Shown here: piece after piece, positions 8,683 through 50,574 of the stretch
How the letters are laid out: the number at the start of each line of letters is the position of its first letter
How positions within the stretch are numbered: position 1 is the first letter of the stretch
NCBI RefSeq assembly: GCF_039536205.1
Contig: NZ_BAAAYL010000001.1
Coordinates: 6,696,001-6,760,000 of the forward strand
Length of the DNA: 64,000 nucleotides
Source: Streptomyces sannanensis
GTDB lineage: Bacteria; Actinomycetota; Actinomycetes; Streptomycetales; Streptomycetaceae
Direction: 5' to 3'
Notes under the pieces: model-generated
The model's input: the letters and a program-made list of their open reading frames with translations, nothing else
Database searches by the model: none
What the model was told of the DNA's origin: nothing
Program-made: the position numbers and the translations under genes

Positions 8683-9144
8683 TTGGAAGGGTTCGTTGTG
8701 GCGACCGGGGACGGCCCGCTGCCCACGGAGGACACCGCGGCACGTGCGGCCGAGGTCCGCGTGGCGTTCGAGGGACTGCTTCAGGTCCGCCGGATCACGA
8801 ACACCGCACCCCCCGATCCCGCCGCCACTCCCGCGGAATGGGAGCGCCGTCGCATGCCGCGGGCGGTCGCCCTGGCCCTGGAGTCGCACGGCATCCCGCC
8901 GTCCGCCGTCGACGCCGACGGACGGCGGACCGCGACCGGGTACCGCGTGGCGCCGTCGGACGAGCCGGGCTCGGTACGGGTGGAATGGCTGGGCCCTGCC
9001 GGCAGCGGCGCCGCAGCCGACGAAGAGGCCCGCCTGAGCGGGTGCGCCGAGGTCCTGGAACGGCTGGGCTGGGAGGCCCTGCTCTACCGCGGCCCGCGCC
9101 GCCGCCGCTTCCTGCTTGTTTCCGCGCTGCCCGCGGCGCGGTGA
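8683..9144 (+). CDS. Hypothetical protein, probable TTG start
   Basis: A 153-residue product if started at the TTG at 8683, which follows GGGGGAGAG with good spacing; a GTG at 8698 is the alternative. The sequence is soluble with a patterned core (PRAVALALESHGIPPSAVDA, GYRVAPSDEPGSVRVEWLG, CAEVLERLGWEALLYR). It ends just after an arginine run and RFLLVSALPAAR. I do not recognise the family. It is divergent from the P450 gene, with about 125 bp between starts. Confidence 0.65.
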   Translation: MEGFVVATGDGPLPTEDTAARAAEVRVAFEGLLQVRRITNTAPPDPAATPAEWERRRMPRAVALALESHGIPPSAVDADGRRTATGYRVAPSDEPGSVRVEWLGPAGSGAAADEEARLSGCAEVLERLGWEALLYRGPRRRRFLLVSALPAAR

Positions 9145-9267
9145 CCCGGCTCGTCACCGGAGCCCGCGTCCCGCCGTGCGCCCGCTCCTCAGGCAGCTCC
9201 GGCCCGCCAGGGCGCAGGCTGCAGCGGAACCGACGTCTCGTTACGCTGTACGGGGAAGGGAACGTCC

Positions 9268-10098
9268 ATGATCCGTAGCGGGACCGGGGGCGCAGGCAAC
9301 AACGGGGGCAAGACGCGTTTCGAGGACATCTATGACCAGCAGGACCCCAGGGCCTACTTCAGCCGCCTCGCCCCGCTGGTCTATGAGATCCCGCACCACG
9401 CCCAGGCCGTCTTCCGCCGGACGTACGCGGAACGCACCGCCGCCGGAGCCACGGGCGCACCCACCGCCGTCCTCGACCTGTGCTGCTCGTACGGGATCAA
9501 CGCCGCCCTGCTGAACCACGACCTCACCCTGGCCGAGCTGTACGACCACTACACCGGTCCCGAGGCGGCGCGGTGCACCACGGATCAGCTGATCGACTGG
9601 GACAAGGAGTTCTACGCCTCCCGCCGCCGCCCCGGCGCCGCGCCCGTCATCGGCCTCGACATCGCGGGCAACGCCCTGCGCTATGCCCTGGCGGTCGGCC
9701 TGCTCGATGCGGCGTTCGCCGAGAACCTGGAGCAGGACCCGCCCAGCCCCGCTCTCCGGCGTGCGGTGGCCGACGTCGGTCTCATCACTCTCACCGGCGG
9801 CGGGAGCTATGTGACCCACCGGACCTTCGACGCGCTGCTGGGCTGCGCACGGCAACCCATTTGGGTGAGCGCCTTCGTCCTGCGTACCGTCTCCTACGCT
9901 CCCATCGCCGACCGGCTCGCGGGTCACGGGCTGAGGACCGAGGCGGACCTGTCGATCACCTATCCCCAGCGCCTGTTCACCGGACCCGACGAGCAACGCC
10001 ACGCCGTCGAAGCGGTACGGAGCAACGGTGCCGACCCGGCGGGCCGGGAGTGCGCGGGCCGGTACCACACGACGCTGTACGAGTCTCGCCCTCGCTGA
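9268..10098 (+). CDS. SAM-dependent methyltransferase-like protein
   Basis: 276 residues from an ATG preceded by GGGAAGGGA. A Rossmann-type opening motif AVLDLCCSYGINAALL (about 73-88) corresponds to methyltransferase motif I. VIGLDIAGNALRYALAVGLLD follows as the acidic-loop region, then DVGLITLTGGGSYVTHRTF. This is the arrangement of a class I SAM-dependent methyltransferase. The motif I glycines are partly replaced by cysteines, so activity is not certain. No substrate is implied by the neighbours. Confidence 0.72.
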   Translation: MIRSGTGGAGNNGGKTRFEDIYDQQDPRAYFSRLAPLVYEIPHHAQAVFRRTYAERTAAGATGAPTAVLDLCCSYGINAALLNHDLTLAELYDHYTGPEAARCTTDQLIDWDKEFYASRRRPGAAPVIGLDIAGNALRYALAVGLLDAAFAENLEQDPPSPALRRAVADVGLITLTGGGSYVTHRTFDALLGCARQPIWVSAFVLRTVSYAPIADRLAGHGLRTEADLSITYPQRLFTGPDEQRHAVEAVRSNGADPAGRECAGRYHTTLYESRPR

Positions 10099-10170
10099 TG
10101 CCGGGCCTCGGTCCGATGCACCCAGCAGGTGATCGTCGGCGCTGAAGAGCTGGAACCCGTACGAGCCCCG

Positions 10171-11178
10171 TCAGCCGCCGGCCCCGAAGTTCTGCGTCCA
10201 CCAGGGGCCACCGGGGCCGAAGTGGATGCCGATGCCGACGTCCTTGAAGGCGCAGTTGAGGATGTTCGCCCGGTGGCCGGGGCTGTCCATCCACGACTTC
10301 ATCACCTGCTCGGGGCTCTTCTGGCCCACGGCGATGTTCTCGCCATACGTACTCCACTCATAGCCGGTGACGGTGATGCGCCGACCGGGGTCGGTGCCGT
10401 CGGGATTGGTGTGGGAGAAGAAGCCGCGGGCCGCCATGTCGTCGGAGTGCCGCTGGGCCGCGGTGCGCAGGTGACTGTCGGCGCGCAGCGGTCCGCAGCC
10501 ATGCTTCTCCCGCTCGCGGTTGAGCAGGGCGATGACCTGCCGCACGTACGAAGACTGGCCGTTGGCGCGAACCGGCGCCGCGGCGCCCCTGGCCGGGGCG
10601 GGACGGCCCAGAGGTGACGTCGCGGGCGTGGGTGACGCGGACGTCCTCCAGCCGGCTCTGGCCACGGGGCCGCGCGCGGGGGAGGCCGAGGTCGGTGTCA
10701 CCGGCGGGTCCGCATCGGGGGTACGCGGCGCCTCCGCGGAACGCACGACCTCCCGGCTCCTGTCCGGAGCACCCACCGAGAAGGTGACGACACCGGCCCC
10801 GGTGGCCAGTACCGCACCCCCGGCGATCAGCACCATCCTGCGCCGGGGGCGCAGTCGATGGCGACGGGCGGCCCGAGGCGTGGTCCGCGCTGTGAGGCCG
10901 ACGGCGGTCCGGGCCGCGCGATCCGTCCGGTCCGGCGCGATCGGGAGAGCCGCCGGCGGCACCAGAGCCAGCCCGATGAGCAACTCCTCGGCCGGTATCA
11001 GGCCGGAAGAGTGCCCGGAACACGCCGTGCACCCGCGGCCGACGATGTTGTACACCAGCGGCAGGTACTCGGCGACGAGTTCGTCCTGGACCCACTGGTC
11101 GCCGGCCTGCGCCGCCGTGATCATCGAGGCGCCGCTTTCACTGCTCACGGTCTGTCCACTCTCTCCGTCGGCCTGCAT
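10171..11178 (-). CDS. CAP-domain protein with sigma-factor-like N-terminal remnant
   Basis: 335 residues from the ATG at 11178 (AGGA 7 nt upstream). Residues about 20-45 (ITAAQAGDQWVQDELVAEYL then PLVYNIVGR) look like the first helices of an ECF-type sigma factor. They jump directly to CTACSGHSSGLIPAEELLIG, a CxxC segment I associate with the region after sigma domain 4. One TM helix follows (MVLIAGGAVLATGAGVVTF), then a proline/threonine-rich spacer, then a CAP/SCP domain (about 215-335; HSDDMAARGFFSHTN, YGENIAVG, HRANILN, PWWTQNFG). Seen: the fusion frame is continuous. Inferred: an in-frame deletion removed sigma domains 2-4, leaving a membrane-anchored CAP protein. Confidence 0.75.
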   Translation of the reverse strand: MQADGESGQTVSSESGASMITAAQAGDQWVQDELVAEYLPLVYNIVGRGCTACSGHSSGLIPAEELLIGLALVPPAALPIAPDRTDRAARTAVGLTARTTPRAARRHRLRPRRRMVLIAGGAVLATGAGVVTFSVGAPDRSREVVRSAEAPRTPDADPPVTPTSASPARGPVARAGWRTSASPTPATSPLGRPAPARGAAAPVRANGQSSYVRQVIALLNREREKHGCGPLRADSHLRTAAQRHSDDMAARGFFSHTNPDGTDPGRRITVTGYEWSTYGENIAVGQKSPEQVMKSWMDSPGHRANILNCAFKDVGIGIHFGPGGPWWTQNFGAGG

Positions 11179-11423
11179 GTCGTTCCTGCACCGCTTGGGA
11201 GATCGTGCGACGCGGCCGCGACGACAGGAACCGCAGTACGGGTGATCTGATGGGCCGAAAGCCTGGTGATCCGGCGTCGGCGCTGGTCAGCCCGGGGGGC
11301 GCTGGGAAAGGATGCATGCGGCGGACGGCCCCCGTGCCCCCATCCGGAGGCATCGCCGCCGATGCCCGGGCGTCGTTCCGCGTACTCGCGGACGACCGAC
11401 GGGGCCACAGCCAGAGCGGACCG

Positions 11424-11850
11424 GCGCCCGGCCACCGCAAGACCGCGCTCGCACACTTCCTCGCCGGTTACGGCGATCTCGAGAATCCCGTCGACACCGT
11501 CCTCCAGCGCTACTACGCTCCCTGTTCGATCTCCGCGAGCTGCCGCGACCTCGCCCTCTCGGATGGCTTCCTGGCCTGCCACGGACTGTGCGCCGACGGC
11601 TCCCGGCCGCTGTCCCGCAGCGAGGTCAAGCGGGTCAACGCCGTGCTGCTCACCTGCGGCACCTATGACGCCGCCTGCGACTTCGCCCACCGCGTGGGCC
11701 TGCCCGGCAAGAGCGGGGTGGGTGGCGGCATCCTGGCCGTGGTGCCCGGCAAGGGCGCCCGGTGCGCTTTGAGCCCCGCCCTGGACCCCGCGGGCAACTC
11801 CGTCGCGGCCGTCCAGGCCCTGGACGCGTTCACGACGATGGGGGTGGTCC
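11424..11850 (+). pseudogene. C-terminal fragment of glutaminase
   Basis: A frame with no start carries the serine-dependent glutaminase C-terminal signature: HFLAGYGDLENPVD, RYYAPCSISASCRDLAL, VNAVLLTCGTYDAACDFAHR, VGLPGKSGVGGGILAVVPGK and SPALDPAGNSVAAVQALDAF. The first half of the enzyme, including the catalytic SxxK region, is absent, and the frame continues into unrelated sequence. It abuts a second truncated gene at 11969. Confidence 0.82.
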
Positions 11851-11968
11851 GTCTTCTGACCGGTCGTGCCGGAGCCGGATTGAGCCGGGCGGCTCCGGGT
11901 AGCCGCAGCGGAGGTCCGGGGGAACCGGAATCCGGGGTTATCCCGAGCGAGCGGGGTGCACGCCGGGC

Positions 11969-12268
11969 CTGCAGCTCATCGGCTACCAGATCGAGGCGAC
12001 CGACGGTTCCGTCGGAAGGATCGGCAAGCATTCCGAGGACGTGGACCGGTCCTGCATCGTCGTGGACACCGGCCCCTGGATCTTCGGCAGGCAGGTGCTG
12101 CTCCCCGCGGGCGTCGTGTCGCGCATCGACTCCGAGAGTCGCACGGTGTACGTGAACTGCACAAAGGACGAGGTGAAGGCAGCGCCCGGTCACCGGGGCG
12201 GTCAGCACGACAGCGATGTGGCGTCCATCCGGCTCGCCGAGCAGTACTACGCGAACCGTCACATGTGA
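11969..12268 (+). pseudogene. 5'-truncated PRC-barrel domain protein
   Basis: The frame has no plausible upstream start but encodes a good PRC-barrel core: LQLIGYQIEATDGSVGRIGK, SCIVVDTGPWIFGRQVLLPA and RIDSESRTVYVNCTKDEVK, then a normal-looking end (LAEQYYANRHM). The usual N-terminal 15-25 residues are missing. An internal ATG at 12041 would give only 75 residues and cut the barrel. Best read as a fragment joined to the glutaminase fragment at a deletion scar. Confidence 0.75.
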
Positions 12269-12278
12269 GGCGCCCTGT

Positions 12279-12740
12279 TCAGTCCCAGGCCTTCGCGATC
12301 TCGAAGCTGTGGGTCTCACGGCCCAGCACATGGCCGTCGGTGTCGACGAATGTCCCCGTCACCTGATAGGTGTCACGCGCGAGATGGCCGGTCGGGAGGT
12401 GCTCGGCGGGAAGCACCACTTCGTACGGGCCGCCGGGTCGATAACTCCCCAACAGCACCTCACTTGTGGCGATGCCCGAGCCGTGCCGCTTTCGCTCCTC
12501 CACGAACTTGAGGCCTTCGACGGGCCTCTTCCCGATGCGGAAGATCAGCGTGACCCGGATTTCCGCGCCCTCCTTCAGGACGAAAGGAGCGGTCTGCGGC
12601 GCGGATTCGGCCTCTCCCGGAACAGGCAGCCGGACAGCCATCTCAACGTGGCCCTCGGCGTGCAGGGACACGCTCAGAAGCTCGAATTGAGGGGTGTCGC
12701 CGGCCGGAACTTCGTGGGAGGTTTTCATCAGACGAGCCAT
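12279..12740 (-). CDS. RhoGDI-like (Rho GDP-dissociation inhibitor fold) protein
   Basis: 153 residues from the ATG at 12740. Most of the protein resembles the immunoglobulin-like domain of eukaryotic RhoGDI: FVLKEGAEIRVTLIFRIG, then PVEGLKFVEERKRHG, EVLLGSYRPGGPYEVVLP, EHLPTGHLARDTYQVTGTF and SFEIAKAWD. The eukaryotic counterparts read FVLKEGVEYRIKISFRVN, SGMKYIQ, VGSYGP, PKGMLARGSY and IKKDW (from memory). The N-terminal arm that clamps Rho switch regions in eukaryotes is lacking; about 25 different residues are there instead. It could bind a lipid, a lipidated partner or a small GTPase; none is shown here. It is followed on the opposite strand by the PRC-barrel fragment. Confidence 0.78.
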   Translation of the reverse strand: MARLMKTSHEVPAGDTPQFELLSVSLHAEGHVEMAVRLPVPGEAESAPQTAPFVLKEGAEIRVTLIFRIGKRPVEGLKFVEERKRHGSGIATSEVLLGSYRPGGPYEVVLPAEHLPTGHLARDTYQVTGTFVDTDGHVLGRETHSFEIAKAWD

Positions 12741-12817
12741 CTTTCGCCGCTGGACCGACACACCTGAAACCAAAGCATAGCCAGGGGAATGCGTGCTCCC
12801 GGCAATGAAACCCGGAG

Positions 12818-13144
12818 TCAGGTGCCCCTGTCCCCGGTCCGCTTCATCCAACAGCACACCAGTTGAAACGCTCCCAGCACGGTCACGGCCCAGACCACCG
12901 CGAATGCCCAGATCAGGGCCTGGGCCGTGGTGACCACCGCCGCTATGAGCAGCGTCAGCGACAGCGCCCCCAGCAGCGAGACGGTGAGGCCACTGGGTTT
13001 CGGCATCCTCGTCGGCAGATGTGGCACCGGGTGCCCCCAGCGCATCGTCCGCATTCTTCGGTCCAGGGTCTCGTCACCCTGCAAATCTGATTCGATCTCG
13101 GAAAGAATCCGCTGTTCGTGATCGGAAAGTCCGGCTCCGTCCAT
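12818..13144 (-). CDS. DUF3040 membrane protein
   Basis: 108 residues. It opens with LSDHEQRILSEIESDL, the DUF3040 hallmark, followed by a basic stretch. Two adjacent transmembrane helices come next (VSLLGALSLTLLIAAVVTTA and LIWAFAVVWAVTVLGAFQL) and a short basic tail. DUF3040 proteins are small actinobacterial membrane proteins of unknown role. It lies upstream of the RhoGDI-like gene on the same strand (about 77 bp), so the two may share a transcript. Confidence 0.85.
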   Translation of the reverse strand: MDGAGLSDHEQRILSEIESDLQGDETLDRRMRTMRWGHPVPHLPTRMPKPSGLTVSLLGALSLTLLIAAVVTTAQALIWAFAVVWAVTVLGAFQLVCCWMKRTGDRGT

Positions 13145-41048: not shown

Positions 41049-42770
41049 ATGAGTGCACCGCACGGAAAGGCTGCCAGCCCGTTCAAGCAGCCGAAGGCCG
41101 TCTGGGCCGTCGCGTTCGCCTGCGTCATCTCGTTCATGGGCATCGGTCTGGTCGACCCGATCCTGCCCGCGCTGGCCGAGAGTCTTCACGCCTCGCCCAG
41201 CCAGGTCTCCCTGCTGTTCAGCAGCTACCTGATCGTCACCGCCGTCGCCATGCTGATCGTCGGCTGGGTATCCAGCCACCTCGGCGCCAAGCGCACCCTG
41301 GTCCTAGGCCTGGCCATCATCGTCGTCTTCGCCGCCCTCGCCGGCACCACCGACTCCATCAGCGGCATCGTCGGCTTCCGCGCCGGCTGGGGACTGGGCA
41401 ACGCCCTGTTCATCGCCACCTCCTTGGCGGTCATCGTCGCCTCCGCCAGCGGCGGCTTCGGCGGCGCGATCATCCTGTACGAGACGGCCCTCGGTCTCGG
41501 TATCGCTGTCGGCCCGTTGCTCGGCGGCGAGTTGGGAGCCATCAGCTGGCGCGGCCCCTTCTTCGGTGTCGCCGTCCTCATGGCCATCGCCCTGGCCGCG
41601 ACCCTCGCTTTCGTCCCTGACCTGCCCAAGCCGAAGAGGCCCACCTCGCCGCTCGCCCCGCTCAAGGCGCTGCGCCATCGCGGCCTGCTGACCATGGGCA
41701 TTATGGCCCTGCTGTACAACTGGGGCTTCTTCACCATGCTCGGCTACGCGCCCTATCCCATGGAGCTGAGCGCCCACCAGCTCGGGCTGGTGTTCACCGG
41801 CTGGGGGCTGCTGGTGGCGGCCTTCAGCGTCTTCTTCGCGCCACGCCTGCAGGCCCGCTACGGCACTGCCCCGGTCCTGTACGCCAACTTGCTCTGCCTC
41901 GGCATCGTGATGGCCGTCATCGCCGTCGGCGTCGACACTCCCGTCGTGGTCATCGTGGCGGTCATCGTCAGCGGTGCCTTCATCGGCATCAACAACACCC
42001 TCACCACACAGGCAGTCATGCTCGTCTCCCCGGTCGAGCGCCCCGTGGCATCCTCCGCCTATGGCTTCCTCCGCTTCATCGGCGGCGGCCTGGCCCCCTT
42101 CGTCGCCGGCAAGCTCGCCGACGCCACCGACCTCAGCGTCCCCTTCTACCTCGGTGCTGCCACCTTCGTCCTCGCGATACCCATCCTGGCCAGCGGCCAC
42201 CGCCTGCTCCGGCAGGCCGAGCAGCACACCGGCGAAGGCGAGCCCGTCACTCTCACCCTCACCCCCGTCGGTGCCCCGGCCGCCACTGACCGGCCGCCGC
42301 TCATCGTCGCCGTCGGCGCCCACGACAAGGCCGCCGCCATCGTCGACGCCGCAGCACAACTCGCCCTCGACACCGGCAGCCCTCTGGAGATCGTCCACGT
42401 CCAGCAGACCGCTGTCGTCGAGGAACAGGCCGTCGACACCGAGACCACCGACCAGGCCCGCGCTGCCGTCACCGCTCACCTCGACCGGCTCACTACCCGA
42501 GGCATCCCCGCCACCGGCCAGATCCTCACCAGCGTCGGCGACCACGCCGCCGCCGGCCGCGCCCTGGCCCAGCACGCCGCCGACATCCACGCGGGCACCG
42601 TCGCTGTCGGCCGCTCGCCGCGCGGCCCCCTCGCCCAGTTCGCCGACGGAAGCTTCACCACCGCCCTCACCCACGCCGCCGCCTGCAGCGTCGTTCTCAT
42701 CGACCCCGACAGCACTCCCCGGCCCTTGACCGCGGCCACCCTGGCGAAGCTGCGCAGCAGTGCAACCTGA
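41049..42770 (+). CDS. MFS transporter fused to a C-terminal USP-like domain
   Basis: 573 residues. Residues about 15-395 form a 12-helix MFS exporter: FACVISFMGIGLVDPILPAL, SQVSLLFSSYLIVTAVAMLI, GLGIAVGPLLGGELGAISWR, AYGFLRFIGGGLAPFVAGKL. After a linker, residues about 420-560 resemble a universal stress protein domain: LIVAVGAHDKAAAIVDAAAQ, PLEIVHVQQTA and AGTVAVGRSPRGPLAQFADG. The USP domain is cytoplasmic and could sense nucleotide or stress. Probably a drug exporter controlled by the MarR protein encoded just upstream. Confidence 0.92.
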   Translation: MSAPHGKAASPFKQPKAVWAVAFACVISFMGIGLVDPILPALAESLHASPSQVSLLFSSYLIVTAVAMLIVGWVSSHLGAKRTLVLGLAIIVVFAALAGTTDSISGIVGFRAGWGLGNALFIATSLAVIVASASGGFGGAIILYETALGLGIAVGPLLGGELGAISWRGPFFGVAVLMAIALAATLAFVPDLPKPKRPTSPLAPLKALRHRGLLTMGIMALLYNWGFFTMLGYAPYPMELSAHQLGLVFTGWGLLVAAFSVFFAPRLQARYGTAPVLYANLLCLGIVMAVIAVGVDTPVVVIVAVIVSGAFIGINNTLTTQAVMLVSPVERPVASSAYGFLRFIGGGLAPFVAGKLADATDLSVPFYLGAATFVLAIPILASGHRLLRQAEQHTGEGEPVTLTLTPVGAPAATDRPPLIVAVGAHDKAAAIVDAAAQLALDTGSPLEIVHVQQTAVVEEQAVDTETTDQARAAVTAHLDRLTTRGIPATGQILTSVGDHAAAGRALAQHAADIHAGTVAVGRSPRGPLAQFADGSFTTALTHAAACSVVLIDPDSTPRPLTAATLAKLRSSAT

Positions 42771-42828: not shown

Positions 42829-43244
42829 ATTTTCGGGCATGGAAGACGGCCGGCGCGAACCCCTCTCCGCGACTTCGGTCTTGCCGCGCAGCACCCGCTG
42901 GTCGCCGACCATTGCGAGGGGCCGGTCGGAGGAAGGTGGTCTGCAGGCCCTGGGGCCGGCTGCCGCTGAGAACCCGAAGGAAATCGCCAGCTCAAGCGGG
43001 TCGCCGCGCGATGGCCGGCCGACTGTGCCAGCGATGCCCAGCAGCCCGGCGAACGCCGCGAACTCTTCAGTGAGTTGCGGCCGCCCACCCCGCCAGGAAC
43101 CGCCGGTGCCTGCGTAGGCCCTACCGGCCTCAGCTCACGCACGCGCCTCTTGGCGTGCGTCCGCGATCGGCGTTGTCAGTGGTCGCAAGTATGTTCAGCC
43201 GTGTCCCGCCGTTGTGGCGCGGACGTCCCCTTGGTGCATAGGAG
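42829..43244. other. Intergenic region upstream of the SWIM-VWA-AAA operon
   Basis: No supported gene. A minus-strand frame reads PQLTEEFAAFAGLLGIAGTV, which looks protein-like but has no start and no recognised family. The promoter of the four-gene operon must lie here; AT-richer sequence (GTTGTCAGTGGTCGCAAGTA) is present at about 43174-43193. Confidence 0.35.
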
Positions 43245-45182
43245 ATGGTTGCGTTGCCAGATTGGGAGAGGTCGAGTACGGCACGGGTGATACCACCCGC
43301 ACGGCTGCGCAAGCTCGCCAAGGTCCCGTTCGTCGAGTTGGCCGACGGACGCTTGCAGGGCGTGGTGTCCAGTGGCTCCGACATCGAGCGGGTCTATGTC
43401 TCGTCGGTCGCGGCCGGCACCTACGCGTTCGCTTGCAGCACCAACAACAACCGGCCCTGCGGTGGCGCGCGGGGCTCTTTCTGCAATCACATCCGGGCCC
43501 TGATCAACGAGGCTGTGCTGCAGTACGGCGCCGAGCGCGTCGCCCGCTACCTGAGGGTCGAGGTCGTGGACGGGGAGCCGAGCGCGCAGACCATCGCTGC
43601 CGGCATGAGCGACACACGTCCACCACAGGGGGACACCAAGGCCGCCGCCCCGGTCTTCAGCCGGTTCCTGCGCCACCTGGCCTACCTGGAACTCGCCGCG
43701 ACCACAGCGCCGTTGCCGGAGATGCAGTGGTTCCCGCCCACCAGGGCGGTGGCGATGGGGGTGCCCCCGCGCGAGCTCGGTTCGAGCGTGGGGGAGCGTG
43801 CCGACCTGCTCGCCGAAACCATCGACGGGCTCGACGAAGCCCTGGCGGCAGTCGATGCCTTTGACCGGACTCTTGTCGCCGGCCTGCTCCGTCCTCAATC
43901 CGCCCCGGCCGCCGGCCTGACAGAGCTTGCCCACGCCGTCGCGGGGACGCCGCTGGCCGCCAGGGTCGCCGAGGCGGCCGAGAAGGCGGCGGTCGGAGCC
44001 GCGAGCGAAGACCATTTCGTCGCCCTCGCCGCCGCCCGCACCGCACTGCTGGGCTCCGTCCATGATGCGCTGATGACCCTTGTCGAGCAGGTGGCCGGTC
44101 GGCCCCGCAGCGAGGAGATCCTCCCGGCGCCCGGCGGGCAGCAAACGGCGAACCTGCTCGCCGCTGCCCGCTCCTGGCTGTCCGATCTGGCGCGCTCCGG
44201 GTGGCAGGGCATCGATCACGACGTGGTCTCCGGGGCTGCGCACGTCGTCTCAGCGATGCTTCCGGACCCGGCCATGCGTCGCCTGGCGACGCTCCTCGAC
44301 GGTTTCGCCGCCGAACTCGCCGCCTCCTGCCCCGGCGCGGCCCAAGAACGCATCCCGGCACGCCGCTGGGCCGACCTGTGGTCGCGCGCGATGCTGCTGA
44401 CGCTGCCCGGTGCGGCCGACGTGCCCATCACCGGTACGGCCACCGGGCGCCTCCTGCCCCTCGGCGTCGACGTGCATGAACACGCGACCGCCGCACAGGC
44501 CCAGGTCCACGCGGTGTTCGAACCCGCGGACGGCGCCGCGCCCCGCCTGGTACGTGCCGGCGTGTCCGTGCCGAAGCCTGACACGATCGTCGGAGCCGGC
44601 CTCTGGCAACTGCTCCGCCCGCACATGTCGCTCCTGACAGCCGTCAGCGAAGGCCGTTCGATGGACCTCGTCGACATGCCCGTCACCGCCGAGGGCGACC
44701 TGGTCTGGAGCGACGAGCACGCACGCCCGAGCGAGCCCGCCGATGCCTTCGCCACCGCCCGCGTGGCCCTGCCCACGGCGACCTCTCCGGCGACGGCACC
44801 CCTGGATCGGCACCCGGCGCGCATCGCCGTACCCGTCTTCCTGGAGGGCTACGCCGCCCAGAGGGAAGACGACGAACTGACGTTCACCGTCGCCGGACAC
44901 CCTCTCGCCGTCGACACCGACCGTATTCCGACTGCCGGACCGCTCACCCCCGAAGCGGTTGCGGCGTCGACCGCGTGCATCGGCCTGCTCCGCTGGGACG
45001 CCGGGAAGTTCAGCGTCCAGCCGCTCGCCGTCGAAACCACCGTGCGGAAGAAGACCGTCGCGATCCACGCCGGGGGATGGGCCGGGGGCACGGCCGACAA
45101 GGCCGGCGTCAAGGCCGAGAAGGCCGCCACCGACGCCGTGGCCGTGCTGCGGGAGCGTGCCGGGAGGCTGCTGCGGAAATGA
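43245..45182 (+). CDS. SWIM zinc-finger protein (YehQ-like)
   Basis: 645 residues. The metal-binding cluster is C64-x7-C72-x7-C80-x-H82 in FACSTNNNRPCGGARGSFCN, a variant of the SWIM pattern CxCx(n)CxH. The remainder is mixed helix/strand and includes LLDGFAAELAASCPGAAQ and PVFLEGYAAQREDDELTFTV. SWIM fingers bind nucleic acid or protein. The gene is first in a four-gene operon and overlaps the VWA gene by ATGA. The combination SWIM-VWA-MoxR ATPase-DUF5682 equals that of E. coli yehQ, yehP, yehL and yehM (known gene set, function not established), so I name it by analogy. Confidence 0.82.
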   Translation: MVALPDWERSSTARVIPPARLRKLAKVPFVELADGRLQGVVSSGSDIERVYVSSVAAGTYAFACSTNNNRPCGGARGSFCNHIRALINEAVLQYGAERVARYLRVEVVDGEPSAQTIAAGMSDTRPPQGDTKAAAPVFSRFLRHLAYLELAATTAPLPEMQWFPPTRAVAMGVPPRELGSSVGERADLLAETIDGLDEALAAVDAFDRTLVAGLLRPQSAPAAGLTELAHAVAGTPLAARVAEAAEKAAVGAASEDHFVALAAARTALLGSVHDALMTLVEQVAGRPRSEEILPAPGGQQTANLLAAARSWLSDLARSGWQGIDHDVVSGAAHVVSAMLPDPAMRRLATLLDGFAAELAASCPGAAQERIPARRWADLWSRAMLLTLPGAADVPITGTATGRLLPLGVDVHEHATAAQAQVHAVFEPADGAAPRLVRAGVSVPKPDTIVGAGLWQLLRPHMSLLTAVSEGRSMDLVDMPVTAEGDLVWSDEHARPSEPADAFATARVALPTATSPATAPLDRHPARIAVPVFLEGYAAQREDDELTFTVAGHPLAVDTDRIPTAGPLTPEAVAASTACIGLLRWDAGKFSVQPLAVETTVRKKTVAIHAGGWAGGTADKAGVKAEKAATDAVAVLRERAGRLLRK

Positions 45183-46639
45183 CCGAGCACACGACGGGGC
45201 AAGCAGCTGAAACCGGGCAATCGGCTGCTTACTCGACCCCGCAGAACCCCGAGGCGGACCCCCACGACAACCGTCGTCAGGTGCTGTACTGGAGGCTCCT
45301 CGCCCGCCTCTTCGACCACGAGGAGCAGGCCACGCTGGAATCGGCGAGCCTCGCCGTCGTCGAGGACATCGGTCTGCCGCCTGCTCTGCTGGACCCGCAG
45401 GCCTCCGTCGACTCGATCGTGCAGCGCCACCCGGAGCTCGCCGCCGAGTTCGACGGACTGATGGCGCCCGAGCCCGACGACGGTGCACGCGACCGGGCCG
45501 CCGAAGTACGGCGCGCGGCGCTGGTGTCGAAGGTGCTGCTGGGCGTCTTCGCCTCCGGCTCCGGCACGGTCACCGCCGGGCAACTGGCACGCTGGCAGTC
45601 CGACGCGGGCTGGCTGGAGCGTGCGCTCGGCTGCAAGCCCGGCGAGCTGCGCAGCGGCCGCGCCGGCGGAGGGACCGGGGCAGGCGCCGCAGGACCGGGT
45701 GTCAGCCCGACCGGCACCGGCGGTCGCGGTACGACACCCGACCTCAGCCGGCTGATTCCGGCGGAGCTCGGCGCCATCGAGGCCGACCTCGTCAAGCGGA
45801 TGCACCTCCGCGAGGTGCTCGCCGACCCCAAGCTCGCCGCGCAGCTGACCCCGAGCATGTCGCTGATCGAGCAACTGCTGCGGGACAAGAACAACCTCTC
45901 GGGTGTGGCCCTGGCCAACGCCAAGGCGCTGATCCGCCGTTTCGTCGACGAAGTCGCCGAGGTGCTGCGCACCCAGGTGGAGAAGGCCACGGTAGGCGCC
46001 CTGGACCGCTCGGTTCCGCCCAAACGGGTGTTCCGTAACCTGGACCTCGACCGCACGATCTGGAAGAACCTCACCAACTGGAGCCCGGAGGAAGAACGGC
46101 TGTATGTCGACCGCCTCTACTACCGGCACACCGCGCGCAAGACGACCCCTCAGCGGCTGATCGTCGTTGTGGACCAGTCGGGCTCGATGGTCGACTCGAT
46201 GGTGAACTGCACCATCCTGGCGTCGATCTTCGCCGGGCTGCCGAAGGTGGACGTCCACCTGATCGCGTACGACACGCAGGCGCTCGACCTCACGCCGTGG
46301 GTGCACGACCCCTTCGAGACCCTGCTGCGCACCAATCTCGGTGGCGGTACCGACGGCACAGTCGCCATGGCACTGGCCCAGCCGAAGATCGCTGAGCCCC
46401 GCAACACCGTCGTGGTGTGGATCTCCGACTTCTACGAATGGCATAGCGAGCAACTGTTCGAAAGTATGGCCGCCATTCACCGCTCCGGGGCCAAGTTCAT
46501 CCCGGTCGGCTCGGTGACCAGCTCCGGGCGCGGCAGCGTCAACCCATGGTTCCGGGAGCGCTTCAAAGACCTCGGCACGCCGGTGATCTCCGGCCACATC
46601 CGCAAGCTCGTCCACGAACTCAAGACGTTTCTCGCTTAG
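45179..46639 (+). CDS. VWA-domain protein (YehP-like)
   Basis: 486 residues, ATG at 45179 inside the SWIM gene stop. N-terminal 320 residues are helical with a glycine-rich linker (161-185). The von Willebrand A domain occupies about 325-486 with a complete MIDAS: D332-x-S334-x-S336 (VVDQSGSMVDS), T391-D392 (GGGTDGT) and D417 (WISDFYEW). Thus it should bind a divalent metal and a protein ligand. In MoxR-VWA systems the ATPase acts on or through the VWA partner; the ATPase gene follows 12 bp downstream. Confidence 0.92.
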   Translation: MTEHTTGQAAETGQSAAYSTPQNPEADPHDNRRQVLYWRLLARLFDHEEQATLESASLAVVEDIGLPPALLDPQASVDSIVQRHPELAAEFDGLMAPEPDDGARDRAAEVRRAALVSKVLLGVFASGSGTVTAGQLARWQSDAGWLERALGCKPGELRSGRAGGGTGAGAAGPGVSPTGTGGRGTTPDLSRLIPAELGAIEADLVKRMHLREVLADPKLAAQLTPSMSLIEQLLRDKNNLSGVALANAKALIRRFVDEVAEVLRTQVEKATVGALDRSVPPKRVFRNLDLDRTIWKNLTNWSPEEERLYVDRLYYRHTARKTTPQRLIVVVDQSGSMVDSMVNCTILASIFAGLPKVDVHLIAYDTQALDLTPWVHDPFETLLRTNLGGGTDGTVAMALAQPKIAEPRNTVVVWISDFYEWHSEQLFESMAAIHRSGAKFIPVGSVTSSGRGSVNPWFRERFKDLGTPVISGHIRKLVHELKTFLA

Positions 46640-46651
46640 AAAGGCCCTGAT

Positions 46652-47764
46652 ATGTCCGACCTGTTGCGCGCCCCTGCCGAGATCAAGTACGCCGAGGAAC
46701 TGGACTGGCTGGAGTCCATCGACACCAACCCCAAGCCCTTCTCCTGGCGCCTGTCCCCGAAGATGGTCCGTCTGTTCATCCTGGGCTCCGAGCGATCCGA
46801 CGGTCTCGACCGGGAGATCTCGCAGAAGTGGTTCGGCGACCGCAGTTTCGTCGAGCGCTCCATCGTCACGCTGGCCTCCGACCGCGGCCTGCTGCTCATC
46901 GGCGACCCCGGCACCGGCAAGAGCTGGCTGGCCGAGCTGCTGTCCGCCGCGATCTGCCGCAACTCCACGCTGGTCGTGCAGGGCACGGCCGGCACCACCG
47001 AGGACCACATCAAGTACTCCTGGAACGTCTCCATGGTCATCGCCAAGGGCCAGTCGCGGGAGTCGATGATCCCCTCGCCGATCATGACCGCGATGGAGGC
47101 CGGCACGATCGGCCGGTTCGAGGAACTCACCCGCTCCACCAGCGACGTCCAGGACGCGCTGATCTCGATCCTGTCCGAGAAGTACATTTCGGTTCCCGAG
47201 CTGGACAGCGACAACATCGTCTTCGCCAAGCCCGGCTTCTCGATCATCGCCACCGCCAACAGCCGCGACCGGGGCGTCAACGACTTGTCCTCGGCGCTCA
47301 AGCGCCGCTTCAACTTCGTACGCATCCCGGTCGTGACGAACAAGAAGAGCGAAGCGGAGATCGTCCGCTTCCGCACCGAGGAACTGCTGCGCCGCCATCA
47401 GATCGAGCTGGACGTGCCGCCGACGTTGCTGGACGTGCTGCTGCAGAGCTTCGCCGACCTGCGTGCCTCGGCGGCCGCGGCCGGCAGCGATGACGAGAAG
47501 CTGGAGTCCGCACTGTCCACCGCCGAACAGATCGGCGTGCTCGAGGACGCGATCCTGCACAGCAACTTCTTCGGCGAGCGCACCCTGACCGCCCACACAC
47601 TCGCCTCCTCGCTCGTCGGGTCACTGGCGCGGCGCGAGCCGGAGGACCTGGCCATCCTCAACAAGTACCTGCACGGCATCGTCGAGCCGCGCAGCAAGGA
47701 AGAGGGCGGATCCTGGCCGGATTTCCTGGAGGGCGGCCGCGACGCGATCGCCACCCTGTCATGA
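46652..47764 (+). CDS. MoxR-type AAA+ ATPase (YehL-like)
   Basis: 370 residues. Walker A GDPGTGKS (84-91), a divergent Walker B RFEEL (155-159; Glu-Glu instead of Asp-Glu), sensor 1 IIATANSRDRG (N203) and arginine-finger region SALKRRFNF (218-219). EVQDALISILSEK-like text (DVQDALISILSEKYISVPEL) after Walker B is typical of MoxR proteins. MoxR ATPases remodel or activate protein complexes with VWA partners. The stop overlaps the start of the DUF5682 gene, so all four operon members are translationally coupled or nearly so. Confidence 0.9.
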   Translation: MSDLLRAPAEIKYAEELDWLESIDTNPKPFSWRLSPKMVRLFILGSERSDGLDREISQKWFGDRSFVERSIVTLASDRGLLLIGDPGTGKSWLAELLSAAICRNSTLVVQGTAGTTEDHIKYSWNVSMVIAKGQSRESMIPSPIMTAMEAGTIGRFEELTRSTSDVQDALISILSEKYISVPELDSDNIVFAKPGFSIIATANSRDRGVNDLSSALKRRFNFVRIPVVTNKKSEAEIVRFRTEELLRRHQIELDVPPTLLDVLLQSFADLRASAAAAGSDDEKLESALSTAEQIGVLEDAILHSNFFGERTLTAHTLASSLVGSLARREPEDLAILNKYLHGIVEPRSKEEGGSWPDFLEGGRDAIATLS

Positions 47765-50574
47765 GCAGCACGCAGGAAGGGACCTTCGAAGCACTGCGCG
47801 CGCAGCTGCAGGAAGCCGCCGCGACGTTCGCCGACGGGCCCGATGCCCTGGAGGGCATCCTCCTCGGCCTCGTGGACGACGTGGACCGCGCGGTGCGCGA
47901 GCCACTGGAGATCTTCCCCGTCTGCCACCACTCGCCCGCCTCGGCGATAGCGATGGCACGCCGCCTGCGGGAGAAGCAGCCGAAAGTCGTGTACTTGGAA
48001 CTGTGCGAGGACATGGCCCCACTGCTGACCGAACTGCGCAACTGCAAGCTCCCGGTGGCGGTCCAGGCGTTCGCGACCGAGGTCGACGGCTTCCCGGCCG
48101 AGTGGTCCCCACTGTCGGTGGTCGCACCGATCACCGAGGCATCGGCCGAGTACCAGGCGATCGCCTACGCACTGGACACACCGGGCGTCGAACTGGTCCT
48201 CGTCGACCGCTCCTCCGACCACGTCTTCCAGTGGGAGGCGCGCGGGACGAACTCCACCGAACTCGGCGCTGATCCAGGGGCGTCGGATGCGTCACCCGCC
48301 GAGGAGGAGGCCGCGCTGCACGGCGACGCGATCGGCGTGAAGATCGGCGATCTGCGGCCGCGCTTCGCCGAACTGGAGGAACACCTGCTGCGCCACGGCC
48401 GGGTGCGGCACTGGTCGGAGTGGTGGCACCAGTATGTCGAACTGCCACTCGGCGACAGCGACCATGACACCTACCGGCAGGTCATGCTCCTGATCGGCAG
48501 CCTCTTCAGGCGCCTCGCCCCCGGGGATCCGCAGCGGGTGCGTGTGGACGAGGACCGGGAGCGTTACATGTGGACCAGGATGCGCGAGCACCTGGCCGCG
48601 AGCGGCACCGATCCTGCGGACTGCCTCTACGTCTGCGGCGCCTTCCACGCGGCCGGCCGCGTCGCGGAGTTCGGCGTCCACGGTACCGACACCTTCGAGA
48701 TCAGCCCGCGCAGTGCCACCAAGTGGCAGCACGGCCTGATCCCGTCCAGCCACGCGGCGATCGAGGCGCAGTTCGGCCTCGCCGCCGGCTCGGTGTCGAT
48801 CGCCGCGACGGTCTGGGCGAAGAACGTCAAGCGCACACGCGTGGAGCCCTACCGCCTGGCGGGACAGGCGGGCGCGAAGAAACCGAAGGCCAAGAAGACC
48901 ACGTCCGCGGCGGCTCCGGAATCGGCGCCCCCGCCCTCGGACAGGCTGACCGGCTTCCTGCAGCAACCACCCGTTCTGGACCGCCTGGACGAGGACGAAC
49001 TGCTCGGCTGGTCGGTGGAGATCGTGCGCGCCGCGCGCCGCAACGGCTACCTCGCCTCCACCGCCGACGCCATCGCGGTGTTCGAGACGTCGATCCTGCT
49101 GGCCGGGATGCGCGACCGGGCCAAGCCGACGCCGTACGACTTCCAGGACGCGGCCGTCACCTGTATCGAGAAGGACATCGTGCCCGGCCGGCGCGACGTG
49201 CGCCGCCTTGTGGAGATCATGATGGGCGGCGACCGGACCGGCCAGGTCGGCTACGACGCGCTGCCACCCCTGGCCCGCGACGTGCACGACCGGCTGGTGC
49301 CCCTGAACCTCAAGCTCCAGCAGCGCGGCGTACAGCGGGCCCTGCTGAACATCGCCTCCCAGCCGGAACTGGAGCGATGCTCCGACGTGCTGTGGATGCT
49401 GCGCTACCTGATGCCGCAGGGTGCCGCACGGCCGATCATGGGCGAGCGGAGGCTGGGGGAGCGGCCGATCCAGGAGTCGTGGGACCTGGCGCTGGGCACC
49501 CATCAGCGGGCGCTCATCGAGCTCGGCTACGAGGGCGTCAGCATCGAGCAGGTCCTGGAACAGCGCCTGCGCCGTGCGGCATACGGCCCGCACGCCACCG
49601 CGGCGACCGTCCTGGAAGCCGTCGAGGACGCGACCCTGTACCTGCGCAGCCGCCGCCTCGCCGACGAGTTGGGCACACGCGCCCTGGAGGTGCTCTCGGC
49701 CGAACGCAGCGTCGACGGCGCACCGGAAGTGCTGCGCAGGGTGCGCAGGCTGTTGGCGTACTACCGCACCAGCGAGCCGGTGCTGCCGTCGTGGATCGAG
49801 TCCTTCGCCAAGACCGGATACGCGCATTACTGCACCCTGCTGCCGACGGCGTTCACCGACGAAGGGGCCACCGTCCGTCAAGTGGCGGCGATGCTGGGCT
49901 TCCTGTTCAGCATGGAGAGCCTGGCGCTGTCGCTGGGCTGCGACCGGACCCAACTGGAGCTGGCGGTAGCCCAGTCGCATCCGCAGGACCCGTCGAAGAC
50001 GGTGCTGCTGTGGGCGGCCTGGACGCACCTGGGGCATCTGTCCCGTAAGGACCTGCGGACGAGGTGCGACGAACTGCTCGGCAACCCCTTGGTGGTGCCC
50101 GCCTATCCGCGCTACCTCAGCGGATTCCTCCATGCCTTGGAGCCCGTTCCGAGCCTCACCGACTTCGTCGTGGAAGCGGTGTCGAACGCCTTCGGACGGC
50201 TGCCGGACGCGGTGCTCTTGCCATGGCTGCCGACCCTGATCACCACCCTGCGGTCGGGCGGCGCCGAGCCGGCCCCGCTGCTGATCCGTGAGGCCGGACG
50301 GATCTTCCCCGGCCGGCTGGCAGCGCTGGACGAGTGGGTGCCGCCGTGGCGGGCGAAGCCGGAGCCGGAAGCCATGCCGCCGGCGCGGCGCGCGGACGGC
50401 AGCCGCGGTGGTGCACTGCTCGCTGCCCACCCCGCGACGTGCGATGCGGTGGCGAGTCTGCTGGGCTGCGAAGGGACGTGGGAGGCGGCGGATCCGGACT
50501 CCCCGGGCGTGGCACTGACCGGTCGCTACCCGGATACGGCGGTGGCGCTGGAGGTGCTGCTGGCCGGCCCATGA
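47761..50574 (+). CDS. DUF5682-like large protein (YehM-like)
   Basis: 937 residues, the largest gene in the window. The N-terminal third has FPVCHHSPASAIAMARRLRE (C55, H56, H57), KVVYLELCEDM, DRERYMWTRMREHL and LYVCGAFHAAGRVAEFG. This order recalls the TraB/ChaN/EreA hydrolase-like fold (His pair, acidic residue, RExxM, GxxH). A basic low-complexity linker (GAKKPKAKKTTSAAAPESAP) at about 365-390 separates it from a C-terminal all-helical region of about 540 residues. Together this suggests a possible catalytic head plus a scaffold. Last gene of the SWIM-VWA-AAA operon. Enzymatic activity is inferred only. Confidence 0.82.
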   Translation: MSSTQEGTFEALRAQLQEAAATFADGPDALEGILLGLVDDVDRAVREPLEIFPVCHHSPASAIAMARRLREKQPKVVYLELCEDMAPLLTELRNCKLPVAVQAFATEVDGFPAEWSPLSVVAPITEASAEYQAIAYALDTPGVELVLVDRSSDHVFQWEARGTNSTELGADPGASDASPAEEEAALHGDAIGVKIGDLRPRFAELEEHLLRHGRVRHWSEWWHQYVELPLGDSDHDTYRQVMLLIGSLFRRLAPGDPQRVRVDEDRERYMWTRMREHLAASGTDPADCLYVCGAFHAAGRVAEFGVHGTDTFEISPRSATKWQHGLIPSSHAAIEAQFGLAAGSVSIAATVWAKNVKRTRVEPYRLAGQAGAKKPKAKKTTSAAAPESAPPPSDRLTGFLQQPPVLDRLDEDELLGWSVEIVRAARRNGYLASTADAIAVFETSILLAGMRDRAKPTPYDFQDAAVTCIEKDIVPGRRDVRRLVEIMMGGDRTGQVGYDALPPLARDVHDRLVPLNLKLQQRGVQRALLNIASQPELERCSDVLWMLRYLMPQGAARPIMGERRLGERPIQESWDLALGTHQRALIELGYEGVSIEQVLEQRLRRAAYGPHATAATVLEAVEDATLYLRSRRLADELGTRALEVLSAERSVDGAPEVLRRVRRLLAYYRTSEPVLPSWIESFAKTGYAHYCTLLPTAFTDEGATVRQVAAMLGFLFSMESLALSLGCDRTQLELAVAQSHPQDPSKTVLLWAAWTHLGHLSRKDLRTRCDELLGNPLVVPAYPRYLSGFLHALEPVPSLTDFVVEAVSNAFGRLPDAVLLPWLPTLITTLRSGGAEPAPLLIREAGRIFPGRLAALDEWVPPWRAKPEPEAMPPARRADGSRGGALLAAHPATCDAVASLLGCEGTWEAADPDSPGVALTGRYPDTAVALEVLLAGP

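Follow-up and report, generated by a model that had tools for sequence, protein, structure and literature searches.

A putative DNA-damage-regulated operon of Streptomyces sannanensis encoding MoxR, VWA, DUF5682 and SWIM-like proteins

Described relatives and organization of the operon

An AAA+ ring protein of the MoxR class together with a VWA partner is found in the RavA-ViaA, NorQ-NorD and CoxD-CoxE systems. These resemble the operon described here in that pair, but the available text of PMC7159879 and PMC3893208 does not describe a DUF5682 or SWIM partner for them, nor membership in a DNA-damage regulon. The MoxR-vWA ternary conflict systems (VMAP, iSTAND; PMC7159879) also combine MoxR and vWA with a third component; this component is however a different one, and YehL, YehM, SWIM, TraB and EreA are absent from that source as far as its available text goes. 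Pfam and PADLOC scans of the proteins of our operon gave no match to a VMAP, iSTAND or effector-fused vWA family beyond a sub-threshold one to bpMoxR (13.1 bits, cut-off 27). YehL, which names one of seven MoxR subfamilies (PMC3893208), belongs to an E. coli locus with the order yehF (WGR)-yehH (pseudogene)-yehI (DUF4132)-yehK-yehL-yehM-yehP-yehQ, and yehLM are present in 5285 of 5426 E. coli genomes. The literature covered, which included no bioRxiv texts and few subscription journals, yielded, among the matches listed, no account of the function of YehL, YehM, YehP, YehQ or DUF5682 and no report linking a yehL-type system to DNA damage.

The window, i.e., the whole 64-kb stretch of S. sannanensis DNA that was analyzed, includes the following genes, taken from the open reading frame list and, for genes 2 to 4, from Pfam matches:

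43245..45182, plus strand: gene 1, 645-aa SWIM-like protein
45179..46639, plus strand: gene 2, 486-aa VWA_CoxE-type protein
46652..47764, plus strand: gene 3, 370-aa MoxR-class AAA+ ATPase of the YehL kind
47761..50574, plus strand: gene 4, 937-aa DUF5682 protein

Genes 2 and 4 start within ATGA overlaps (45179 and 47761) and a gap of 12 bp (46640-46651) separates genes 2 and 3. Reading the DNA at both overlapping starts showed that the coupling reported in the preliminary description is real; the existence of the operon is confirmed, and the interpretation given there is partly supported. Of the four families named there, Pfam recovered VWA_CoxE (gene 2, E 8e-30), AAA_5 (gene 3, E 2e-36) and DUF5682 (gene 4, E 2e-27, residues 67-662 of 937), but the gene 1 protein had no Pfam match to a SWIM domain.

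The same set had been said to occur in E. coli, which is correct for the MoxR, DUF5682 and VWA families, encoded there by yehL, yehM and yehP together with the SWIM protein gene yehQ. The two loci differ in gene order, that of the window being a permutation of yehL-M-P-Q, and in their regulatory association, LexA in E. coli and PafBC in the window. YehM belongs to the DUF5682 family (331 bits) and has remote similarity to the member in the window (profile comparison 99.4%, residues 61-657 aligned with 4-518). Between the gene 1 protein and YehQ the profile comparison detected no relation (2%).

To follow the operon through its family, the gene 4 protein (P0004) was searched against 200 genomes at E<=1e-30, and relatives were found in 55 of them, the own genome included, and in 8 of 17 genera. 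Forty of these 55 loci were fetched, leaving aside the own genome, G079, G082 and G147 (where the match was in two pieces) and 11 others. The order SWIM-VWA-MoxR-DUF5682 was kept in all 40, so that the four families do co-occur. MoxR was the best-conserved member in each locus (80-97% identity), and identity of the SWIM-like protein dropped to 49%. The surroundings are different: 167 flanking ORFs from 41 loci fell into 133 clusters, the biggest of which was common to 6 loci. The operon with its promoter is thus the unit that is retained as the neighborhood varies, and its presence in 55 of 200 genomes with unrelated flanks makes horizontal spread plausible. As to the earlier placement of the operon among mobile relics, a domain scan found no transposase or integrase domain among the 10 ORFs flanking it in the window. 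Just 5' of the operon (41049-42770) there is a universal-stress-protein domain fused to an MFS transporter.

The PafBC-type promoter at the operon and its sister systems

A promoter overlooked in the preliminary description precedes gene 1:

43173..43195, plus strand: PafBC/RecA-NDp-type promoter, TTGTCAGTG-gtcgcaag-TATGTT, exact match, ending 49 bp 5' of the gene 1 start

It is the sole exact match in the 64-kb window to TTGTCRGTG-N8-TANNNT, which we take to be the RecA-NDp/PafBC consensus. The best match within the 300 bp 5' of gene 1 in the 40 orthologs was exact in 26, had one mismatch in 8 and two mismatches in 6, and was located at -46 to -92; none of 2000 shuffled upstream sequences had a match with <=1 mismatch. 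The 1,102,052 positions of the 40 loci contain 26 exact and 9 one-mismatch matches in total, with no further exact match elsewhere in them. Where the operon is carried by a plasmid of Streptomyces cadmiisoli, a site with one mismatch lies roughly 60 bp 5' of it, and one locus of the window class (L101) has no motif within two mismatches. The RecA-NDp promoter has been described (PMC8223512, PMC6789036, PMC5087735) and ssDNA is reported to activate PafBC (PMC11804915). Predicted regulation of the operon by DNA damage through a PafBC-type promoter is well supported at the sequence level, and is a more specific lead than the chaperone or conflict models proposed earlier.

The host genome includes 22 exact sites, compared to 1 for a reversed-pattern control, and 4 of the 22 are found at MoxR/DUF5682 systems. 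Pfam analysis of the genes directly 3' of exact sites identified uracil-DNA glycosylase, RarA/MgsA, RuvC, RpsF, RecA and a RecD2-type HHH protein, as well as peptidase A24 and an OrfB_IS605 protein. No Pfam match was obtained for two of the 10 downstream proteins scanned, one of them being macrodomain-like by eye; in S. coelicolor, the macrodomain gene SCO6735 is preceded by a RecA-NDp promoter and reported to be UV-inducible (PMC5087735). The same analysis across the genus gave 11 to 44 exact sites per genome in 61 of 61 genomes, with each control column at <=1. Two WYL-domain genes located 2-3 kb beyond the Pup-ligase gene likely mark the pafBC locus of the host. The count of 22 includes one repeated site, L008 and L029 (G000:C1:224919 and 7184412), which recurs, together with the ORF that follows it, close to either end of contig C1 and in opposite orientation, as would fit a linear chromosome with terminal inverted repeats. 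Another exact site (L028, G000:C1:6801397-6801419) lies 48 bp 5' of the OrfB_IS605 gene, and this mobile-element protein may be damage-induced.

Four DUF5682 genes are present in the host genome, and besides the window operon they define three sister systems:

L005, core class: SWIM and DUF5691 genes divergent from MoxR-DUF5682-VWA; exact motif
L006, fusion class: DUF4132, a 1728-aa protein without Pfam match, MoxR and a 1318-aa DUF5682-VWA fusion (8976-12932); one-mismatch motif
L007, WGR class: DUF4132, WGR-DUF4132, MoxR, DUF5682, VWA and a SWIM-type protein; two exact motifs

Three of the four systems (window, L005 and L007) thus have an exact motif and L006 has one with a single mismatch. 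In own-genus relatives all 3 loci of the WGR class had an exact site, and the 3 loci of the fusion class had one exact and two one-mismatch sites; another fusion locus, L096, has no motif. The core class was present in 12 of 12 own-genus genomes scored, at what looks like a fixed position. Across the phylum DUF5682 was found in at least 24 of 396 genomes, among them these 12; these counts are lower bounds, because no more than two candidates were scored in each genome.

In 24 of 25 Streptomyces core loci (18 named and 7 own-genus) two sites, each with <=1 mismatch, are located back to back between the SWIM and MoxR genes. The site-to-site distances, which were measured directly, are 25-86 bp and follow mostly steps of about 12 bp, a hint of helical phasing; the 25th locus has one site per direction, wider apart. 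The site facing MoxR always has CA for TA at -10. This arrangement, found at 8690-8762 of L005 and in the Streptomyces core loci, is a candidate for a coupled bidirectional damage promoter.

Outside Streptomyces our view comes from the named loci, which are the best 80 of 581 and as a sample lean to the core class. The 80 loci come from Chloroflexi, Cyanobacteria, Bacteroidota, Proteobacteria, Actinobacteria, Acidobacteria and others, and all five genes of the core operon SWIM-DUF5691-MoxR-DUF5682-VWA were present in 61 of them. The core operon shares with that of the window MoxR, DUF5682, VWA, a SWIM protein and, in Streptomyces, PafBC-type promoters, but it carries DUF5691, which is absent from the window operon, and its arrangement in Streptomyces is divergent. 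Among the same best 80 of 581, the 62 non-Streptomyces loci (1.07 Mb) had 8 sites with <=1 mismatch and no exact one, and a motif with <=1 mismatch near the SWIM start was found in 3 of the 22 non-Streptomyces actinobacterial loci. None of six core loci of other families (L088-L093) had the motif at the operon start. A damage box shared by the core operon in other phyla was not found when LexA and other box types were sought from -300 bp to +120 in the SWIM gene, which gave scattered single matches, and the alphaproteobacterial and E. coli plasmid loci had no convincing damage box. A plasmid locus (L182, 5489-18984), on pAtS4e of Allorhizobium ampelinum, has MoxR-DUF5682-DUF4132-VWA-SWIM behind two hypothetical genes and an adenylosuccinate-synthetase-like gene, and is perhaps a nucleotide-linked variant.

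The links to damage in E. coli and Deinococcus rest mainly on the literature. There is no exact LexA box in the E. coli yeh stretch; a one-mismatch box lies 10 bp 5' of yehF, such boxes being at chance level (8 compared to 5.5 expected), and the stricter 20-bp E. coli LexA consensus did not pick up the site. One paper counts molR, i.e., the yehF that precedes the E. coli system, among the genes known to be regulated by LexA (PMC11039860), a statement that concerns molR itself. In D. radiodurans, depletion of DdrO raises the expression of DR2173 (WGR) and DRA0165-0166 (DUF4132) (PMC8533742), genes that are comparable to the system by family. The RDRM-like site found 5' of the D. taeanensis operon is a weak one (2 mismatches, 0.44 expected by chance).

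Features of the four proteins

The sequence features on which a functional reading can be built are the following:

43434..43490, plus strand: putative metal-binding cluster C-x7-C-x7-C-x-H of gene 1 (residues 64-82), a pattern also present in the 10 full-length homologs displayed
46172..46429, plus strand: complete MIDAS of gene 2 (DxSxS 332, Thr 391, Asp 417)
46901..46924, plus strand: Walker A GDPGTGKS of gene 3 (residues 84-91), the Walker A pattern being present in 40 of 40 orthologs
47908..48750, plus strand: N-terminal enzyme-like domain of gene 4 (about residues 50-330) with H56, H57, E80, S128, E130, D149, R266, E267, G293 and H296

The Walker A motif and the AAA_5 match bear out the description of gene 3 as a MoxR-class AAA+ ATPase, whose closest solved relatives in a profile search are the midasins. 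An intact MIDAS, as had been described, is indeed read in the window VWA protein. In 16 of 40 orthologs Asn is found in place of the MIDAS Thr, with the Asp and Ser positions intact in the one printed example.

The naming of the gene 1 product as a SWIM-type metal protein needs correction. Besides the lack of a Pfam SWIM match, its Cys pattern differs from the CxCxnCxH of canonical SWIM, and profile comparison relates it to the core-class SWIM family (1%) as little as to YehQ; "SWIM-like" is the furthest assignment that its sequence warrants. Its counterpart in 38 of 40 orthologs consists of two genes (about 173 and 472 aa) overlapping as TGATG, the fused form being that of the window and of 2 of 40 orthologs; the full-length form was found in 47 of 120 listed homologs of the gene 1 protein (P0001). 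No relation of the C-terminal 472-aa part of the window protein to DUF5691 could be detected (profile 0.7%).

In the N-terminal domain of DUF5682, H56, E80, S128, E130, D149, R266, E267, G293 and H296 are present in 78 of 78 aligned proteins and H57 in 77 of 78. The TraB/EreA-like head attributed to gene 4 is backed by a fold match, as the rank-1 match of a relative's model in BFVD was a TraB-family protein (probability 1.00, E 0.027), but not by profile comparison, where hhalign gave 1% against a narrow YbaP set of 15 and 0.2% against 15 EreA-family proteins. The GAxH signature was paired in the best local alignments, and PF01963 had no match in 41 relatives. A search of the PDB by structure gave no match at E<=0.001 for the N-domain, the VIA rows corresponding to the C-terminal half; the PDB search by sequence gave 1x42 alone (E 1.5), and Foldseek with the gene 4 model (mean pLDDT 65.7) gave nothing but helical repeats. 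On the basis of the modeled fold the N-domain is probably TraB-like, and for the C-terminal half we infer an ARM/HEAT-like scaffold. The 1318-aa DUF5682-VWA fusion protein encoded in the same genome next to MoxR (L006; also G000:C1:609769-612663) supports contact between VWA and DUF5682.

Possible mechanism and alternatives

We consider it reasonably probable that the operon encodes a MoxR-VWA machine, induced by DNA damage, whose task is to remodel or activate DUF5682, and that it is part of a widespread MoxR-VWA-DUF5682-SWIM family; its predicted regulation is well supported and its biochemistry is inferred. Points that speak against this reading are the scarcity of the motif outside Streptomyces, the weak sites in E. 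coli and Deinococcus, the failure of the TraB/EreA profile comparison, the non-canonical Cys pattern of the SWIM-like protein and its lack of a detectable relation to YehQ, and the Asn that takes the place of the MIDAS Thr in 16 of 40 orthologs. Upon DNA damage, ssDNA would activate PafBC, which would direct RNA polymerase to the operon promoter. MoxR would assemble as an AAA+ ring, with the VWA protein as the adaptor that holds DUF5682, and ATP-driven remodeling would activate or feed DUF5682, whose N-domain carries the invariant His-His...Glu...His set, probably on a TraB-like fold. Recruitment of the machine to nucleic acid or damaged nucleoprotein would most likely be the role of the SWIM-like protein, or of the WGR protein where sister systems have one. 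The most likely output would be that, upon damage, a protein or ligand located on DNA is remodeled or hydrolyzed as part of recovery from genotoxic stress.

The VWA_CoxE match of gene 2 fits another role as well, maturation of a metal center, in which DUF5682 or some other enzyme would have its metal or cofactor inserted by MoxR-VWA, in the manner of CoxDE or NorQD, and the promoter would mirror enzyme demand under genotoxic or oxidative stress. The invariant His/Glu set could bind a metal, and molR was reportedly essential for molybdate use by E. coli, according to a 1990 report. A function of MoxR-VWA pairs in metal insertion is documented (PMC9976466, PMC13036017; CoxD-CoxE, PMC7159879). 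However, molybdenum, NO-reductase or CO-dehydrogenase genes were not noticed beside the loci examined, and in D. radiodurans moeA/moeB are not co-regulated with the WGR/DUF4132 genes in the available part of PMC8533742; we regard this role as unlikely. A machine for proteostasis under general stress, with the PafBC site as one of several inputs and no specificity for DNA, would suit the presence of the core class in several phyla without a recognized damage box, but WGR and SWIM are domains linked to nucleic acids and the same damage promoter is found at all four classes in the genus, which makes such a machine an improbable alternative.

A function in anti-phage or inter-bacterial conflict, where damage or phage DNA would trigger a SWIM/WGR sensor and MoxR-VWA would release DUF5682 as a toxic hydrolase, is slightly less probable still. 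The description of MoxR-vWA ternary conflict systems (PMC7159879), the patchy presence (55 of 200 genomes) with unrelated flanks and the existence of plasmid copies (40 of 72,556 records, one of which adjoins type I restriction genes) speak for it. On the other hand, PADLOC had no match for window genes 1 and 4 and only weak AAA/VWA matches for genes 2 and 3, and 10 proteins of the sister systems and of E. coli likewise lacked a match; there is no PADLOC family for DUF5682 or the SWIM-like protein. Viral contigs held no close relative of the gene 3 protein (P0003), and YehL was found in 1 of 50,697 phage records. The near-universal yehLM of E. coli and the fixed-looking position of the core class in the genus also count against it, and co-regulation with repair genes needs no defense role. 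Anti-phage defense as a first choice was rejected on the PADLOC results and on the rarity in phage, viral and plasmid collections; such a role, and the earlier link to conflict systems, has no direct support here.

Beyond the damage-induced remodeling machine that we favor for the operon, we advance as a tentative and rather doubtful extension that the family is an unrecognized ATP-driven effector arm of DNA-damage responses that came independently under the control of PafBC in Streptomyces, of LexA in E. coli and of DdrO in Deinococcus, and in which a split midasin-like ring would strip or cleave proteins on damaged DNA by means of a TraB-like catalytic domain. The damage promoter at all four classes in one genus turns what was an unknown MoxR chaperone into a testable hypothesis, and confirmation would add a protein-remodeling branch to a response known chiefly for repair enzymes.
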